Below the pieces are notes generated by a model. The model saw only the letters and a program-made list of their open reading frames with translations, did not search any database and was not told the origin of the DNA. The translations under genes and the position numbers were made by a program. This document shows, piece by piece, positions 3,886 through 26,063 of a DNA stretch of 31,858 bases. The stretch lies in IMG/VR virus record IMGVR_UViG_3300009176_000059, positions 1-31,858 of that record; one strand, given 5' to 3'. Within the stretch, counting starts at the first letter, position 1; every line of letters begins with the position of its first letter. Origin of the DNA: a virus.

Positions 3886-3901
3886 GATAACCTCTCATCC
3901 T

Positions 3902-3961
3902 GGACCATCCCAGGCGAAAGCACCGTGACATAAACCACGGTGCTGTCGTACGGGGTGGTGT
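3902..3961 (-). repeat. Palindromic repeat element, copy 1
   Basis: This 60-base element is shared with 5526-5583. On the minus strand it folds as a long imperfect hairpin. An outer ACCA-C-CCC pairs with GGG-A-TGGT, CGA pairs with TCG, and a 9-bp AGCACCGTG/CACGGTGCT stem closes an 8-base loop. The tip differs from copy 2 by a compensated pair (GTG/CAC against ATG/CAT), so the fold rather than the sequence is kept. It lies between the stop of the DUF805 gene and the ribosome binding site of the next gene. Only three U residues follow the stem, so it would be a weak terminator; an RNA processing site or REP-like palindrome is also possible. Confidence 0.75.
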
Positions 3962-5493: not shown

Positions 5494-5525
5494 AGTGTGC
5501 TTTATCCTCTTGTTGCTTAATCCCA

Positions 5526-5583
5526 GGACCATCCCAGGCGAAAGCACCATGCCGAAACATGGTGCTGTCGTACGGGGTGGTGT
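5526..5583 (-). repeat. Palindromic repeat element, copy 2
   Basis: This is the second copy of the element at 3902-3961. The outer arms are identical (GGACCATCCCAGGCGAAAGC and GCTGTCGTACGGGGTGG). The stem tip is altered in a paired way (CACCATG/CATGGTG) and the loop is two bases shorter. It lies immediately after the stop of the 5583-5753 gene and just upstream of the aspartic protease. The two copies bracket a three-gene cassette of about 1.6 kb in direct orientation. Confidence 0.75.
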
Positions 5584-6181: not shown

Positions 6182-6375
6182 ACTCCTGTTTCAATCGCAC
6201 GCATCATGCGTATGACACGTGCTGTCAGATCGTGACGCGTTGTCACGTCGTCGATCATCTCATACTCGAAGCCTTCCCAATTCAGGTCGACCTCGGTCAG
6301 CGTTTGATCGCCGTCGGTGAACACGCCGGCAATCTCAAGGAACAGATACCCGTCCTCTGTCAGCACAGCTCTCAT
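6178..6375 (-). CDS. Small acidic hypothetical protein (65 aa)
   Basis: This encodes MRAVLTEDGYLFLEIAGVF followed by an acidic segment (DLNWEGFEYEMIDD) and a basic helical tail (HDLTARVIRMMRA). It overlaps its upstream and downstream neighbours by four bases each. The layout suggests a small alpha/beta domain. It has no recognisable motif. Confidence 0.6.
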   Translation of the reverse strand: MRAVLTEDGYLFLEIAGVFTDGDQTLTEVDLNWEGFEYEMIDDVTTRHDLTARVIRMMRAIETGV

Positions 6376-6893
6376 TTCCCTTTCCTCACGGTGCCTAGCT
6401 TAGTCAGTTTGTCCTGATACGCCAACGCCGCCTTTAGAAACGGCGCCTTCTGTTCTCCCGTCATCCACCGCCTTATGGTGCTGCCGGGCGATTGCACGTA
6501 ACCGCACTTGCCGAACTTGTCGTGCGCGGTGTTGATGCTTATGGTCATGTAGTCGTACTCCGTCCACACGTTGTCGCGCATGGACTTGCCTTTCATATGG
6601 TAGGGTGTGATCGACTCCACCTTGCCCCAGTATCCGAAACTGTCTCCCATGTTGGTGACACTCTCGCACCGGATCACATCGCCCACCACGATATCAGTCG
6701 CGGGTACTTTCAGCGACTCGGCATAGAGACGCGACGCGGCTTCGCCACGCTTCGTCAGCGTGACCTTCTTGCCGCGACACTTGAAGCATGTCGTGCCGTA
6801 GCTCTGGCAATAGCTGTAATTGCCGCTGCCTCCACAACGGGAGCATGTCTCGATCTCGAAGCCCAGCGTGCTTACGCGCATTTTGTCGGTCAT
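6372..6893 (-). CDS. DnaJ-type zinc-finger protein, unknown function
   Basis: This encodes 173 residues. Residues 17-43 carry CSRCGGSGNYSYC and then CFKCRGKK, the CxxCxGxG spacing of the cysteine-rich domain of DnaJ, here as one compact zinc site. There is no J domain. The C-terminal 120 residues look beta-rich (IVVGDVIRC, WTEYDYMTISINTAH) and are unassigned. GGAG lies seven bases before ATG 6893. Proteins with single DnaJ-like fingers are common in phages and often bind nucleic acid or protein partners, but no activity can be assigned. Confidence 0.7.
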   Translation of the reverse strand: MTDKMRVSTLGFEIETCSRCGGSGNYSYCQSYGTTCFKCRGKKVTLTKRGEAASRLYAESLKVPATDIVVGDVIRCESVTNMGDSFGYWGKVESITPYHMKGKSMRDNVWTEYDYMTISINTAHDKFGKCGYVQSPGSTIRRWMTGEQKAPFLKAALAYQDKLTKLGTVRKGK

Positions 6894-6924: not shown

Positions 6925-7206
6925 TCAGCGTCCGGTGAGCCGCTTCAGCTTCGCCGCCTTAGCCTTGCCTTGACTCGATACCACGATCCGCGTCTTCAGC
7001 ACGGCGGGCGGTGCGCCCACCACCTTATGCTTCGGTGCCTTCGCGGTGACGATGATGCGCGACGGCTTCGCCTCGCGCTTGCGTAGTATGTCGGATGCCG
7101 CGTTGCGGTACTTCCACTTGGTGGCTTCGGTCGCGTCGTACCACATGCCGCCTTTGTCGGTGGTGTAAAGCTGTGCCGCCAGCCCCTCGATCATAAGCGA
7201 GTCCAT
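6925..7206 (-). CDS. Small basic hypothetical protein
   Basis: This encodes 93 residues starting MDSLMIEGLAAQLYTTDKGG. The second half is highly basic (AKAPKHKVVGAPPAVLK, ending KAAKLKRLTGR), which suggests nucleic-acid contact. Its start region, with AAAGGA upstream of ATG 7206, is part of a 28-base sequence repeated exactly at the next gene upstream. The family is not recognised. Confidence 0.6.
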   Translation of the reverse strand: MDSLMIEGLAAQLYTTDKGGMWYDATEATKWKYRNAASDILRKREAKPSRIIVTAKAPKHKVVGAPPAVLKTRIVVSSQGKAKAAKLKRLTGR

Positions 7207-7225
7207 GTCCTATTCCTTTCGATGT
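7198..7225 (-). repeat. 28-base direct repeat over a start site, copy 1
   Basis: The sequence covering the ribosome binding site, ATG and first codons (reading ACATCGAAAGGAATAGGAC then ATGGACTCG on the minus strand) is identical to 7438-7465. It supplies the start of the 6925-7206 gene. Confidence 0.8.
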
Positions 7226-7257: not shown

Positions 7258-7446
7258 CTATTTGATGAGGCTTCGGTCAACGATAGCTGCAATCCTATCC
7301 AATCGCTCCTGCAACTCTTGTGCGGTCATCGCATAATGTGCATGGCGTTGTGTGGCTTGTTTAATCTCTTCCAACGCTTGCCTCATTTCTTCGATCATCT
7401 CAGACTGTGCTCGCAGGAGCGGAAGGGAATCACCAGACGAGTCCAT
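7258..7446 (-). CDS. Small coiled-coil protein (62 aa)
   Basis: This protein begins MDSSGDSLPLLRAQSEM and then forms one long amphipathic helix (IEEMRQALEEIKQATQ, then LQERLDRIAAIVDRS). Coiled-coil formation is likely. It shares its translation start sequence with the next gene downstream. It starts shortly after an intrinsic terminator, so the promoter must lie within or beyond that terminator; none was recognised. Function is unknown. Confidence 0.6.
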   Translation of the reverse strand: MDSSGDSLPLLRAQSEMIEEMRQALEEIKQATQRHAHYAMTAQELQERLDRIAAIVDRSLIK

Positions 7447-7465
7447 GTCCTATTCCTTTCGATGT
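7438..7465 (-). repeat. 28-base direct repeat over a start site, copy 2
   Basis: This is an exact copy of 7198-7225. It provides the ribosome binding site and first codons of the 7258-7446 gene. The two copies are 240 bases apart in the same orientation, which suggests duplication of a translation-start cassette. Confidence 0.8.
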
Positions 7466-7814: not shown

Positions 7815-7861
7815 CGCAAAAGCGCGAAGGGCGCCCCCAGCCTTTCAGCCGGGAGCGCCCT
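7815..7861 (-). terminator. Strong GC-rich hairpin pair, probable terminator
   Basis: Just after the H1-like gene, AGGGCGC-T-CCC pairs with GGG-GGCGCCCT in an 11-bp stem. It is followed by a second small hairpin, GCGC-TTTT-GCGC. The T-run is inside the second hairpin rather than free, so the strength is uncertain. The position right after a stop codon supports termination. Confidence 0.65.
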
Positions 7862-7875
7862 GTCGTCGGTACTCA

Positions 7876-8277
7876 TCAGGCGAAGCGGTATGCGGCGACG
7901 CCGTCCTTGCGCTCGACCGCAACCACCTTGTACGGCTTGGTGATCTCGCCGTGCTTGATGTTGTAGTTCGACCACGTCACCGAGAAGCGGTCGGCAATCG
8001 CCTTGGCGGAAACGGACTTCCAGCCGGTTGCCTCCTTGATTTCAGCGGCGGTCATCCCCTCCTTGCGGATGGCGAGAGCGAAGATGATGCTGGACTTCTC
8101 GCCGTGTGCCGCTTTCTGCTGCACCGGCTTCGGTGCCGGCTTTGCCGCCTTCTTCGCGACAACCGGCTTTGCCGCCTTGGCGGTCTTCGCCAGCTTCGCC
8201 TTGTCAGCCGCTGCGGTCTTCAACGCCAGCTTGCGGGCGTCGGCGACGGTGGCGGTCTTCGTGATCTTCTTAGCCAT
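7876..8277 (-). CDS. Histone-H1-like basic protein with C-terminal winged-helix-like domain
   Basis: This encodes 133 residues. Residues 1-60 are Lys/Ala/Pro-rich, like the tails of histone H1 and bacterial AlgP-type proteins (KLAKTAKAAKPVVAKKAAK). Residues 62-133 form a compact domain (SSIIFALAIRKEGMTAAEIK, then WKSVSAKAIADRF) resembling small winged-helix DUF3489-like domains. The likely role is binding phage or host DNA in the cytoplasm. It stands alone: a strong promoter at 8745-8773, a leader of about 460 bases with five inverted repeats, GGAG eight bases before ATG 8277, and a terminator directly after. This arrangement suggests high and separately controlled expression. Confidence 0.8.
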   Translation of the reverse strand: MAKKITKTATVADARKLALKTAAADKAKLAKTAKAAKPVVAKKAAKPAPKPVQQKAAHGEKSSIIFALAIRKEGMTAAEIKEATGWKSVSAKAIADRFSVTWSNYNIKHGEITKPYKVVAVERKDGVAAYRFA

Positions 8278-8357
8278 GATGTAAACTCCGTTGGAAACCT
8301 AAGCCCTAATGCTTAGGTGCAAGCGCCGTAGCGGTGGCGCTTACATCTAAGATAGGA

Positions 8358-8412
8358 AACCAAATCGAACCGCTATAGGGCTGCGTCGCGGTGGACCGAG
8401 TCCGATTTGGTT
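8358..8412 (-). repeat. Structured element A of the leader
   Basis: A perfect 10-bp outer stem (AACCAAATCG/CGATTTGGTT) encloses a 35-base core. On the minus strand the core reads TCGGTCC, a variable stretch, GACGCAGCCC and TATAGCGG, matching element B closely. An inner ACCGC/GCGGT pairing is also possible. Confidence 0.75.
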
Positions 8413-8421
8413 GGTGTCCCT

Positions 8422-8473
8422 GTTATCCGATACCGCTATGGGCTGCGTCCGCTAGGACCGAATATCGGATAAC
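8422..8473 (-). repeat. Structured element B of the leader
   Basis: A perfect 11-bp outer stem (GTTATCCGATA/TATCGGATAAC) encloses a 30-base core with TCGGTCC, GACGCAGCCC and ATAGCGG in the same order and spacing as element A. The outer stem shares no sequence with that of A. The inner fold differs, since GTCC-TAGC-GGAC can pair here. Confidence 0.75.
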
Positions 8474-8485
8474 CTCAGAAAAGTT

Positions 8486-8526
8486 CAGATCGCTAATCGG
8501 CGCGAACACGCTATCGGCGCGATCTG
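8486..8526 (-). repeat. Structured element C of the leader
   Basis: An 8-bp stem (CAGATCGC/GCGATCTG) encloses 25 bases. Only a short part (CCGATAGCG on the minus strand) resembles the core of A and B, so it may be a degenerate third copy. Confidence 0.55.
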
Positions 8527-8744
8527 TTTCGTTTAACGGTTGCCACCCTGGTTATATGGCGGGCGCTTGCTATCGCGTCCGTTTGCCCATACGCACCTTG
8601 CGTCACTGAGTCTATTCCCGTCCGATATCAGACGAGGCTCTGAGGGGGTGGAGTCCGTGCCGAATTTTGTTTCGTCGGGGTTCGGCGCCCGCCGGCTTAT
8701 CTGCCGAGTTTTCCGTTGGGGTTGGTTCCCGTCCGGTGAAAGGA

Positions 8745-8773
8745 AATATAGGGGTGTCGTCCGCCGCCGTCAA
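8745..8773 (-). promoter_or_regulatory. Sigma70-type promoter for the H1-like gene
   Basis: On the minus strand TTGACG (8768-8773) and TATATT (8745-8750) are separated by exactly 17 bases. An A-rich stretch (AAAAATAAA) just upstream resembles an UP element. Transcription would start near 8738 and read into the structured leader. This is the best match to a host promoter that I found in the window. Confidence 0.75.
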
Positions 8774-8984
8774 CTTTATTTTTCGGACCTAAGTCGTTGA
8801 AAACGTTAGATTTCCCCTACGGGACGCATTTTTTATGACGGGAATCGGCGGTTTTTTTCAGGTCGAGCCGGAGCGCCGACGACAAGTCGGGCGGGGCGGG
8901 GCTGACGGCGGGGAGATTCAGTCTCAGTATATGAGACGGGAGCCGGGAGGGGAGGGGCGCCGGGAGTGGCTTTACGACACCACC
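8774..8984 (-). other. Gene-free spacer between helicase gene and promoter
   Basis: No gene is supported here. The part next to the helicase is extremely G-rich on the plus strand. A perfect 6-bp palindrome (GTCTCA-GTATA-TGAGAC) at 8921-8937 could be a binding site. T-runs at about 8830 and 8853 read as terminator-like only on the plus strand, without convincing stems. Confidence 0.5.
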
Positions 8985-10631
8985 CTAACGCGGGGCGCCC
9001 GGATGCGCTAGGCGGCGCCGGGGCGCGGGGCGCGGGATAGGTAGCGGCGGGGAGCTAGGATGCGTGGCGGGCGTCCGGAATCGCCGGCGTTCGCTTGTCA
9101 GGCTTCGGAGGATATCGCGCCCCTCCTTCAGAAAGTCTAGGATGCGCCTATCCACCGGGGAGGCGGTCAAATCATCGATCATCAGTGGACGTGTGCCGCG
9201 CGCCATCGGACGTGCCTGCGCTTGCTGACGTGTGATAGGCGACACGGGCGATTCATAGAAGATAAGATAATCGGCTTGCGGAAGATCGATTGACAGCCCG
9301 CCTTTCACGCTGTTCGCCACGAGATACTGCGTGCGCCCCTGCTGAAAGTCTGAGACGATGGCATTGGACTTGGCGAGCGTGGTCACACCACCATAGAGCC
9401 AGCCGAACGTCGCCTTGCGCTTGGTCAGCATGTCGGTGATAAGCTTGCCGGTGTGTGTGTATTCGTGAAAGATGACGATCTGCACATCGGGTTTGGCTTC
9501 CACCAACTCGGTCAGCCATTCCAGCTTGGGGTTCGCCTTGAAGTGGATTATATGTCGCTCATCTTCATCATCGTCGAATGGCAGGTACCCAGCCGAGACT
9601 TGGCGCAGCCGGTGAAAGGTGCTGAGTATGGCAGCGTTCTCACCAGACGGCAGCTTTATCAGCTTGTTGATAACATCATGGTAAGCCTCTAGCTGGTCGC
9701 CGTACATGTGCAACTCGACCACATCCTCCCACACCGTCTGATCTGCCACCTCCTCGCGTCGATAGCTCATGGCAAGTGATGATAGCTTGTATTCCAGCTT
9801 CGGCAGCTTTCGCTTGTCGAAGATGTACTCCGTCCGCCCGCTGAAGTAGTTCTTCTTCTTGTTGCCGAATGCAATCTCGAAAAAATAGTAGTTGTGCCCT
9901 AGCGTTTTGCCACGGTCGATGAGGAAGCACTGAGCCCACAGCGCATATGGGTCGCGCCCGAACGGTGTGCCGGTCAGCCCCAGCCGGAACTGGCAGTGCT
10001 CTGTCAAAGCCGCTGCAATCTGAAACCTGAGAGACTGATGATCCTTGAACATATGTATCTCATCGAAGATCGCCAACTCAAAATCTTCGGCAATGTCGGC
10101 GATGAGCGGTAGGTTCGGATACAGCTTGCGCTTCGCCTTGTCACGCTTGTTGGTGCCCCACACGGTGAACAACTCTTGCGCGCCCGACACCGGCAGCACG
10201 ATCAGGTCGACAGATGGATCGGTGATGCCTTTCACGAAGTCGGCAGGATCGGTGTGCACGATCTGGATGTTGAACGTGCTGTGTTTGCGTGCCTCGGTCG
10301 CCCATACTTGCAAACCGAGTGGCGAGTGCGCAAACACGATGCCTTTGCCTTTCCGCCATAGATTGGTGCGCTTGAGATGCTGTGCCCAAGCCAGCGCCAT
10401 CATGCTCTTACCCAGCCGCATGTCGTACAGCAGCAGCGAGCGGCGCATATAGAGCGCGAATGCCAGTCCTTCCAACTGATACTGGCGAGGTTCCGTCACC
10501 GGCTCTAGGAATTGCCCGGTGCTGTCATAGATGGTGCGATTGAGTGCTTTCGTCTCCGCGTGCTTGAACTCCGGCATCGCCGGCATAGGCTTGTCGAGGA
10601 AATGCTCAATCGCGAGTGATGACAGAGCCAT
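8985..10631 (-). CDS. SNF2/superfamily II DNA helicase
   Basis: This encodes 548 residues. Helicase motifs in order are motif I (YDMRLGKSMMALAW, near residue 71), motif II (FDEIHMF, about 190), motif III (LGLTGTPFGRDP, about 215), motif V (ANSVKGGLSIDLPQADY, about 442) and a diverged motif VI (QQAQARPMARGTRP, about 480). This is an SNF2-like ATP-dependent translocase. It probably does branch migration or replisome remodelling like T4 UvsW, which it may replace here. The last 40 residues form a Pro/Arg-rich tail with PAPRRRLAHPG, sharing the R-R-x-L motif seen in several other proteins. ATG 10631 overlaps the stop of the DnaB-like gene by one base. It ends its operon before a long non-coding region. 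Confidence 0.88.
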   Translation of the reverse strand: MALSSLAIEHFLDKPMPAMPEFKHAETKALNRTIYDSTGQFLEPVTEPRQYQLEGLAFALYMRRSLLLYDMRLGKSMMALAWAQHLKRTNLWRKGKGIVFAHSPLGLQVWATEARKHSTFNIQIVHTDPADFVKGITDPSVDLIVLPVSGAQELFTVWGTNKRDKAKRKLYPNLPLIADIAEDFELAIFDEIHMFKDHQSLRFQIAAALTEHCQFRLGLTGTPFGRDPYALWAQCFLIDRGKTLGHNYYFFEIAFGNKKKNYFSGRTEYIFDKRKLPKLEYKLSSLAMSYRREEVADQTVWEDVVELHMYGDQLEAYHDVINKLIKLPSGENAAILSTFHRLRQVSAGYLPFDDDEDERHIIHFKANPKLEWLTELVEAKPDVQIVIFHEYTHTGKLITDMLTKRKATFGWLYGGVTTLAKSNAIVSDFQQGRTQYLVANSVKGGLSIDLPQADYLIFYESPVSPITRQQAQARPMARGTRPLMIDDLTASPVDRRILDFLKEGRDILRSLTSERRRFRTPATHPSSPPLPIPRPAPRRRLAHPGAPR

Positions 10632-23070: not shown

Positions 23071-23538
23071 CTATCTCCTTAGTGGTCGACGAACTGGTGA
23101 CGTCACTGGTTTTTCCTTATCAGGTTCCCACACCACCAAGCCGGATTTGGTGGCGAGGTGAATCATGTTTGCCGTTCCAGAGCCACCGGGGAACGCCACC
23201 ACGTTTGTCGGTCGGAAGCGTGTCAGCATCTCAGCGTTGCGATGTGGTCCAGCACGGTCGCCGTGCAAGCCCCACTGTGCTGGCATTCCAAGGTAGGCGT
23301 ACTCGCGTTCCTGTGCCCATTCCTGCGCCCAGCGATCCGCACCGCGCAGATTGGTAGGCTCGCCCTTCACACAGCAGGCGCCGTGGATCACAGTGATTAG
23401 CTCGTTGCCTGTGCCGTACCTATGGTTCTTCGCCAGTTTGTCTAGAGCACGGAACACAGCATCGCGGTCCAGATAGTTGCGTCCGCCGGTCACGAGCACG
23501 CGCATCTCGTTGTCACTTCGATCATCCAGCCAGTCCAC
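23071..23538 (-). CDS. DUF2493 (SLOG/YspA-like) protein
   Basis: The 155-residue protein has the family hallmarks: RVLVTGGRNYLD, VIHGACC and LRGADRWAQEWAQE, AGPHRNAEM and VVAFPGGSGTANM. This is a Rossmann-like SLOG fold that binds nucleotides or related ligands. GTG 23538 overlaps the polymerase stop and has GAGGGGAG upstream; ATG 23505, giving MRVLVTGG, is an alternative start. Phage members are common but uncharacterised. The end reads PVRRPLRR, close to the shared R-R-x-L terminus. Confidence 0.87.
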   Translation of the reverse strand: MDWLDDRSDNEMRVLVTGGRNYLDRDAVFRALDKLAKNHRYGTGNELITVIHGACCVKGEPTNLRGADRWAQEWAQEREYAYLGMPAQWGLHGDRAGPHRNAEMLTRFRPTNVVAFPGGSGTANMIHLATKSGLVVWEPDKEKPVTSPVRRPLRR

Positions 23539-26063
23539 TACACGTAACTCCCCTCAAATGTATGTACGTCGTACGTGTCACACCAATTATCGCCAATCTT
23601 ACACTCCACGGTGAGGGGCACACATTGGAACTGGTATCGAGTCCTCACCATCACCTTTTGAATTTCCTCAATGTATGGCTCGGGGTTTGCGTTGGGAAGG
23701 AAGAACGATAAGTCATCGTGAATCTGCATACGCGGATGAAAGTAGAAGTCATCATACTCCATCGCAAGCTGTGACAGTTCATCCATAGCCTCCATCACGA
23801 TATCAGCCTCCATCCCCTGTATCGGATAGTTGACAGGCTCGGTGCCCTTGGCGATGCCACGCCATTCGCGTCCGGTCATAAATCGGATCACACCGTAGTC
23901 ACGGTATATCTTGTACTGATCGCGTTGCCACACCTGTACGTCTTTGTATGTCTCCCAGAAGAAGCCCAACACCTCCTGCACCTGACGAAGCGGTATGCCG
24001 GTGCGCTCGCATGTGGTTTCCGCGTTGGAGCCGAACAGCGATGAGAACACGAAGTCGGACTTGATGACGTTGCGTCCAGCCTTCCGCACCTTCGCTTCAT
24101 CCTTCTCGCCGGTCTGCGATGCGAGACGTTCCAGGTAGATCGGATAGACATGCAGAACTTGATCCAGCCAGTAGGTGTGCATATCCACGTGTTCAATGAT
24201 GGACTTGCATAGCGCACGGTCACGCGATGCCCATCCCTGTATCCTCATCTGTAGCTGTCCATAGTCGAACTTGCAAAACAGATTGCCCTTCGGTGCCACG
24301 ATCTGCCGGCGTATCTCTGGATGCTTCCGCACCGGGTAATTCTGGATATTCGGTTCGCGTGACGACAGCCGCAATGTTGACGTGAACATAGTGGTGTAGG
24401 TCGGATGTAGCATACCATCTGGATACAGCTTCGGCGCTTCGATGGTGGCGTCTACATACGTGACGACCTTGGCTATCTCCCGATCATCCAGCACCGCACG
24501 TGCGAGGGGGTTTTCATCGGCGAACTTGGACAGTGTATCTTCATCGGTGGCATACTGCTTGCCCTTATCAGTCTTGGGCAGTGGTAGCTTTCCATACGCC
24601 ACCAGTGCGGCACCCACTTGCTCAGCGGATGTGATCTTGAACTCAATGCCACGATCCGCCTCATACTGCTTTACTTCATAGAGATTGCGAGCGTCGGCGC
24701 GTATCCGCTCCTGATCGGACAGCAGCTTTGCCTGCATCGTCTCGGCTTCGTTCAAGTCGTACGGTATGCCCATCAGTTCCATGTTGACGGTGGCAGAGAT
24801 GGCACCGAGTATCCTGGTATAGTCCTCACGCGCCACCTGTCCGCCAATGCGGCGATGGATGCGTGCCGATGCCCACGAGTCCAAGCCGTTGTATGGGATG
24901 ATATCCTCCAGCTTATACGACATGATCTGAGCGGCATCAATGTTGCTGAGTGATTTGATGTTGACGCCGAGTACAAGCTGTGAAGTGTCATCCAAGCCAA
25001 GCAAGCCCTGCCGCTCGAAAATCAGACGGGAGTACGCCATCGTATCATCGAACGGCATGAGAGGTTCGGATGTGAGGTAGCGGAACCACGACAGTTCGTG
25101 CGCTGCGTTGTGTGCGATCCAGCGACGGGTGCGCACCACCTTAATAATCAAGTTGGTACCCCACGTCGTTGGCATTGACGGATGATTGCACGACCACGCT
25201 ACCGTCAGCTTGCCATCCGACACTGATGCTGTCAGCAACTCAGACCGCACCTCATATGGACGCAATCGCGACGACTCAAGGTCGACGGCAACCGGATCGC
25301 TCATACGGTCGATGATTGCCTGTGCCTCGGACTCGGATTTTGCCCAGACCACATCAGACAATTTGACGTGTTCGATACGTGGCGGGTTCCACTGATCGAC
25401 GCCGTTGAAGAAGCGCCGCAGATCGGATTGAAACAGCACGCCTGCCGACGACTCACGTCTGCCGCGCCGCTCAGCTTCACGGTTCTCGCGGATGACGAAT
25501 GCCGGATGAAACACTGGATAGTACCACAGCACACGTCCGCCGACAGACACCGGCATCTTGATACCGTGAGCCTTCATAATAGAGCCGTCTGGATAGAACT
25601 TGCGAAGCGGTGTGCCACCCAGACCGAGGATGGCTGTGAGGTTCGGCATGTTGGCAACGTCTTCCTCAAGATATGGCGAGCACGCGTGCATCTCATGTGG
25701 TGTCGGTGTTCGGTTCTCCGGTGGTCGGCAGCGACACACATTCTGGAACGCAACGCGCTTGTTGTGCTTGTGCGGGATGTTGTCGCGTAACAGCTTGCCG
25801 GATGGTCCCACCAGTGCGGCGCCGTCGCGATCCTCCTGCTCGCCTGGTGCCTCCGCCAGTGCGAGTATCTCGCCAGTATTCCAGTTGCCGCTGATCTTCA
25901 TTTGTGGGCTGGCGATGGTGCCCCATACGCTGCGGAGCGTACACGCGTCGCAGCCCACAGCGTTGGGGTCGATTATGACTTGTTGCTTGGCGGCTCGGGC
26001 GGTGGTTTGCTTGATTTTGTGCAAGTTGTCGGTGACGTGGTCGAGGTGTTTCCAGAATCCCAT
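23538..26063 (-). CDS. Family A DNA polymerase fused to an N-terminal family 4 uracil-DNA glycosylase
   Basis: The 841-residue protein has three domains. Residues about 30-200 are a family 4 UDG with four Fe-S cysteines (38, 41, 112, 128), EAPGEQEDRDG (71-81), NVCRCRPPENRTP and FHPAF (185-189). Residues about 245-420 are a 3'-5' exonuclease with VDLESS, AHNAAHEL and YNGLDSWA. The polymerase follows with motif A FDYGQLQMR, motif B RNVIKSDFVFSSLFG and motif C QIHDDLS. Motif A has Gln where family members have Glu (Glu710 of E. coli Pol I), and motif C has HDD instead of HDE. It is the replicative polymerase of the module; the glycosylase domain looks intact. GGAG precedes ATG 26063. Confidence 0.92.
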   Translation of the reverse strand: MGFWKHLDHVTDNLHKIKQTTARAAKQQVIIDPNAVGCDACTLRSVWGTIASPQMKISGNWNTGEILALAEAPGEQEDRDGAALVGPSGKLLRDNIPHKHNKRVAFQNVCRCRPPENRTPTPHEMHACSPYLEEDVANMPNLTAILGLGGTPLRKFYPDGSIMKAHGIKMPVSVGGRVLWYYPVFHPAFVIRENREAERRGRRESSAGVLFQSDLRRFFNGVDQWNPPRIEHVKLSDVVWAKSESEAQAIIDRMSDPVAVDLESSRLRPYEVRSELLTASVSDGKLTVAWSCNHPSMPTTWGTNLIIKVVRTRRWIAHNAAHELSWFRYLTSEPLMPFDDTMAYSRLIFERQGLLGLDDTSQLVLGVNIKSLSNIDAAQIMSYKLEDIIPYNGLDSWASARIHRRIGGQVAREDYTRILGAISATVNMELMGIPYDLNEAETMQAKLLSDQERIRADARNLYEVKQYEADRGIEFKITSAEQVGAALVAYGKLPLPKTDKGKQYATDEDTLSKFADENPLARAVLDDREIAKVVTYVDATIEAPKLYPDGMLHPTYTTMFTSTLRLSSREPNIQNYPVRKHPEIRRQIVAPKGNLFCKFDYGQLQMRIQGWASRDRALCKSIIEHVDMHTYWLDQVLHVYPIYLERLASQTGEKDEAKVRKAGRNVIKSDFVFSSLFGSNAETTCERTGIPLRQVQEVLGFFWETYKDVQVWQRDQYKIYRDYGVIRFMTGREWRGIAKGTEPVNYPIQGMEADIVMEAMDELSQLAMEYDDFYFHPRMQIHDDLSFFLPNANPEPYIEEIQKVMVRTRYQFQCVPLTVECKIGDNWCDTYDVHTFEGSYV

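Follow-up and report, generated by a model that had tools for sequence, protein, structure and literature searches.

A two-copy stem-and-core module in a predicted phage leader RNA

The locus and its relatives

We analysed a 31,858-base fragment of a virus from IMG/VR, referred to below as the window. Its plausible genes are nearly all on the minus strand and include those for a sliding clamp, ribonucleotide reductase, DNA polymerase A, methyltransferases, a clamp loader, a RecA-like protein, SbcCD-like proteins, a DnaB-like helicase, and an SNF2-type helicase (gene names without a family call were read from the sequence only). With the plausible gene set used, these 31.9 kb contain only one intergenic gap longer than 115 nt (8278-8984); it separates the SNF2-type helicase gene from that of a basic, DUF3489-like protein. 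A second IMG/VR contig belongs to the same phage species, with two differences in 13,659 bases and none in the gap. The features in and around the gap are as follows.

8789..8801, minus strand: upstream motif TTCAACGACTTAG, single copy in the window
8745..8773, minus strand: promoter-like TTGACG-17-TATATT, sigma-70-like, with 10 of 12 consensus matches
8278..8738, minus strand: untranslated leader, predicted to start near 8738, part of the gap
8545..8600, minus strand: E4, weak hairpin with GGACGC..ATAGC, a doubtful relative of the module
8486..8526, minus strand: E3, hairpin with an 8-bp perfect stem
8422..8473, minus strand: E1, first module copy, with an 11-bp stem (P1) and a conserved core
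8358..8412, minus strand: E2, second module copy, with an 11-bp P1 in the same register (one G-U) and a conserved core
8297..8358, minus strand: hairpins at the 3′ end, directly before the ribosome-binding site, predicted to adopt either of two mutually exclusive folds
7876..8277, minus strand: downstream gene, 133 aa, with a Lys/Ala-rich N-terminus and a DUF3489-like C-terminus
7828..7861, minus strand: strong hairpin after the gene, a possible terminator with a weak T-run

The product of the downstream gene had been labelled 'H1-like' in a preliminary description of this DNA. It is better described by a DUF3489-like C-terminal domain (a sub-threshold Pfam match) and a basic tail, and the protein probably binds DNA. 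The leader contains no convincing reading frame, and ARAGORN identified no tRNA or tmRNA.

Several other features of the window were recorded. DNA polymerase A (23538-26063, minus strand) combines N-terminal uracil-DNA glycosylase-superfamily and 3′-5′ exonuclease domains in a single reading frame. The helicase carries a GC-rich proline/arginine C-terminal extension of ~30 residues (8985-9080, minus strand) that its relatives do not have, and the protein encoded at 6372-6893 (minus strand) has a zinc-finger-like region with weak, below-cut-off similarity to Anti-TRAP. Two neighbouring small genes, both starting MDS, have a duplicated translation start, with identical 28-nt direct repeats (7198-7225 and 7438-7465) that span the ribosome-binding site and start codon. 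A 29-nt repeat pair (93 per cent identical) is found twice in the same order, at 3899-3961 and 5523-5583, each time upstream of a gene, and may be a promoter or regulatory region that has been duplicated.

In helicase-profile searches, a single relative proved to be syntenic and to have the gap: the distant L016 (112.8 kb, helicase 56 per cent identical). Three others (L017-L019, helicase 43-46 per cent) have this region at the end of a contig or in another arrangement, and the same search of species genomes returned no match. The preliminary description had called the promoter strong. The sequence does occur on the minus strand, at 8773-8745. The pattern alone is not above chance (eight found versus 6.9 expected in 16 kb), but its -10 context and the upstream motif recur in L016 at the corresponding place. 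The conserved -10 context is ACCCCTATA, with the upstream motif at the same distance: in L016, TTCAAYGACTTAG is followed by 34 bases (33 in the window) and then ACCCCTATA, with exact matches nowhere else in the sequence examined. The upstream motif occurs once in the window and once in L016, both times inside this gap.

The motif, written WTCAAYGACTTAG, also recurs between the genes of unrelated phage contigs; its sites are window 8789-8801 (minus strand), L016 11567-11579, and L041-L052. A scan for it together with the -10 context returned eleven contigs unrelated to the window. All eleven have an A before TCAAYGACTTAG, though the scan pattern did not include that A, and in L044 the motif is present three times in tandem, at intervals of about 28 nt. 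In Stenotrophomonas phage DLP6, the motif precedes several predicted terminators (PMC5349666). A text search of the literature found no explanation for it.

L016 has its own hairpin-rich, structured leader (z -3.6), whose similarity to the leader in the window is not clearly above shuffles. Directly after it comes a gene for a small DnaJ-type zinc protein, and only further on the DUF3489-like gene, which has a clear terminator-like site behind it. Since this gene order differs from that in the window, the position of the leader is tied to the transcription unit and not to one gene.

The duplicated module

E1 (8473-8422) and E2 (8412-8358) are paralogous modules of ~55 nt, each with a conserved core of ~30 nt within an 11-bp stem in the same register. 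On the minus strand they have TCGGTCC, GACGCAGCCC, and ATAGCGG in common and in that order. Local alignment of the cores scores 51, compared with a maximum of 33 in 1,000 dinucleotide shuffles, and about twenty-five core residues are nearly invariant. The predicted short inner arms GUC/GAC and GC/GC are the same in both copies and never vary; in our model, they would sit in a junction.

Aligned in register, nine of the eleven P1 pairs differ on both sides between E1 and E2 and two are the same, all of them standard pairs. This level of double change with pairing was reached by none of 500 shuffles. Sliding the partner column leaves between zero and two doubly changed paired positions, versus nine in register, and because sliding destroys the double-change pairing, the result is covariation inside one genome and not chance. 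Complete 11/11 pairing around a 30-base interior is found at three of the 31,858 positions in the window, and around a 31-base interior at one. The earlier proposal of a conserved core in freely varying perfect stems thus holds for E1 and E2 as they had been described. Judged from the sequence, they are a real, duplicated, structure-constrained element, and old enough for the stems to have turned over with pairing kept throughout. The element is most likely RNA, and it is placed to be transcribed within the leader, as had been suggested. We consider the structure of the module well supported; its function we infer.

A third copy of the core is absent from the window, and neither E3 nor E4 is a convincing match to R1, the covariance model of E1 and E2. 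E3 and E4 share an 18-nt repeat (72 per cent), and ATAGC is found in E1, E2, E3, and E4, always on the same strand, which hints at a degenerate longer array without proving one. Of the three further hairpins previously noted, those at 8486-8526 and 8297-8318 (the latter with an 8-bp stem) are real, but 8545-8600 is unremarkable (z -0.94).

Database searches were largely negative. No Rfam family matched at the gathering score, the sole match being a microRNA model far below the cut-off, in agreement with the earlier statement that no known riboswitch class is recognisable. A search of IMG/VR with the core returned only the second contig of the same species. Among 84,980 species genomes (GTDB), there was one core match; it falls within the coding sequence of an SbcD-like gene and lacks a flanking stem, and we rejected it as chance. 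Plasmids yielded no core match, and a nucleotide search of phages yielded nothing convincing. The core scans demand near-exact cores and would therefore miss a diverged relative. In L016, a genome-wide search for core-like sequences and matches to R1 found no module. The wider structured RNA family that had been envisaged is not supported, as no covarying homologues came to light in related phages, of which a single syntenic one was found: the evidence comes from one phage species and two module copies, with covariation only between E1 and E2.

Two other identities were considered for the repeats. We rejected a phage-borne mini CRISPR array (the spacing is 62 nt), since the central parts of the repeats differ and each repeat has inverted stems of its own. 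The attC sites, which have conserved ends and variable centres, were also set aside.

The leader and its possible functions

Compared with shuffles, the whole leader folds better as the minus-strand RNA (z -4.0) than as the plus strand (z -2.4). Its energy corrected for GC is no outlier, and this phage folds strongly in general. Among about 137 chunks of 230 bases, 8278-8507 is one of the strongest (z -3.66), and the 5′ half of the leader (8508-8737) folds no better than shuffles (z -0.64). The leader contains four perfect stems of at least 8 bp (loops up to 35), a number reached by 0.6 per cent of equal-sized windows. For its last eighty bases, two mutually exclusive folds are predicted from the single sequence at -29.4 and -29.1 kcal/mol, and a further fold, which pairs the start region, lies 2.6 kcal/mol above the best. 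Two separate 7-base stretches in the 3′ hairpins complement the E2 core (0.6 per cent of shuffles), as we noted post hoc. In the computed ensemble, the bases directly before the start codon are mostly unpaired. A switch between the 3′ hairpins is plausible on these predictions.

The explanation we tentatively favour, which falls a little short of probable, is an untranslated leader RNA in which two tandem aptamer-like or protein-binding junctions and alternative hairpins control the downstream gene. The promoter at 8773-8745 would drive transcription of the gap and give an untranslated leader of ~460 nt. In its 3′ half, each tandem module would have an 11-bp P1 of freely varying sequence that closes a junction, and this junction would consist of two short arms, GUC/GAC and GC/GC, together with the conserved core residues in single-stranded form. 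Most likely, each core would bind one factor, which could be a small molecule or a protein of phage or host, and two copies could make binding tighter or cooperative. Expression of the DUF3489-like protein may then depend on how binding shifts the balance of the mutually exclusive hairpins beside the ribosome-binding site.

The sequence itself shows the gap, the two copies with their constraint on pairing, and their position. The doubly changed P1 pairs, the core similarity above shuffles, and the better fold of the minus strand all favour the leader reading, as do the nearly isoenergetic 3′ folds, the complementarity to the E2 core, and the lack of a coding, tRNA, or Rfam alternative. L016 keeps the promoter context and the gap, with its own structured leader. 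Against this reading, the module is found in one phage species only, and L016 keeps the leader's place without it; the 3′ switch is a single-sequence prediction, the complementarities are post hoc, and the computed ensemble leaves most of the final bases ahead of the start codon free. That the leader senses its own product, as had been proposed, is weakened because a different gene directly follows the leader in L016 and because the product is better called DUF3489-like. A bolder version is improbable: the module would represent a new tandem RNA aptamer class, serving the phage as a riboswitch or as a protein sensor, and would determine when during infection a DNA-binding protein of the phage is expressed.

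The leader might instead serve stability or processing, with hairpins that are cut by RNase III or block exonucleases, so that the mRNA is processed and stabilised without any ligand. Leader hairpins do process and stabilise mRNA in the transcripts of T7-like phages. Strong hairpins lie a short way upstream of the start codon in this phage as well as in L016, and such a role would account for leader structure, but not sequence, being kept across phages. It leaves the nearly invariant core residues unexplained amid fully diverged stems, and we consider it unlikely.

Another possibility is a small noncoding RNA that works in trans, either as a free-standing transcript or as fragments processed from the leader. 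One such role would be to titrate a host protein. Tandem modules with a common core resemble a protein sponge, and a long leader without a convincing reading frame is in keeping with this idea. However, no terminator-like site separates the modules from the downstream gene on the minus strand, and the modules are continuous with that gene, which has its own ribosome-binding site. We find a role in trans quite unlikely.

Pairing could also be selected in the DNA, as part of a replication origin or as protein-binding cruciforms or single-strand hairpins. The element adjoins replication helicases, its DNA folding is also better than shuffles, and the upstream motif is near primase genes in two of the eight unrelated contigs examined. 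In other unrelated contigs, though, the motif is near terminase, ligase, and repressor genes, and one E2 P1 pair is G-U on the minus strand and a mismatch on the other. The repeats and GC skew give no support to the origin region suggested earlier: there is no iteron-like k-mer excess, and neither the window nor L016 shows a clear skew turn at the site (a weak test). We consider a DNA element rather improbable. Chance, or a recent functionless duplication, fits the restriction to one species but is hardly credible, as recent copies would share stem sequence and the stems here are unrelated yet paired in register.

Comparison with known systems

Orphan structured RNAs are usually discovered by comparing many genomes; here, two copies in one phage genome supply their own covariation. 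If confirmed, the module would be a small, testable RNA element in a phage replication region, and covarying duplicates within a genome would offer a search route for RNAs too rare for comparative screens.

Among known systems, tandem riboswitch aptamers (glycine, guanidine-II) are similar in having adjacent copies with a conserved core and variable P1, in their placement in a 5′ leader, and in alternative hairpins, predicted here, near the ribosome-binding site. E1 and E2 differ in having no Rfam match, known ligand, or conserved gene association. As in riboswitches, a conserved core is combined with variable, covarying stems, here between two copies only; riboswitches, however, recur in several species before functionally related genes, and the module is confined to one. 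Protein-binding mRNA leaders that act as autoregulatory operators likewise place a structured leader before the gene for a probable nucleic-acid-binding protein, but the gene order differs in L016 and binding here is a prediction. T7-type RNase III or 5′ hairpin leaders also have hairpins upstream of the ribosome-binding site, but they do not have the duplicated, conserved single-stranded core found in E1 and E2.
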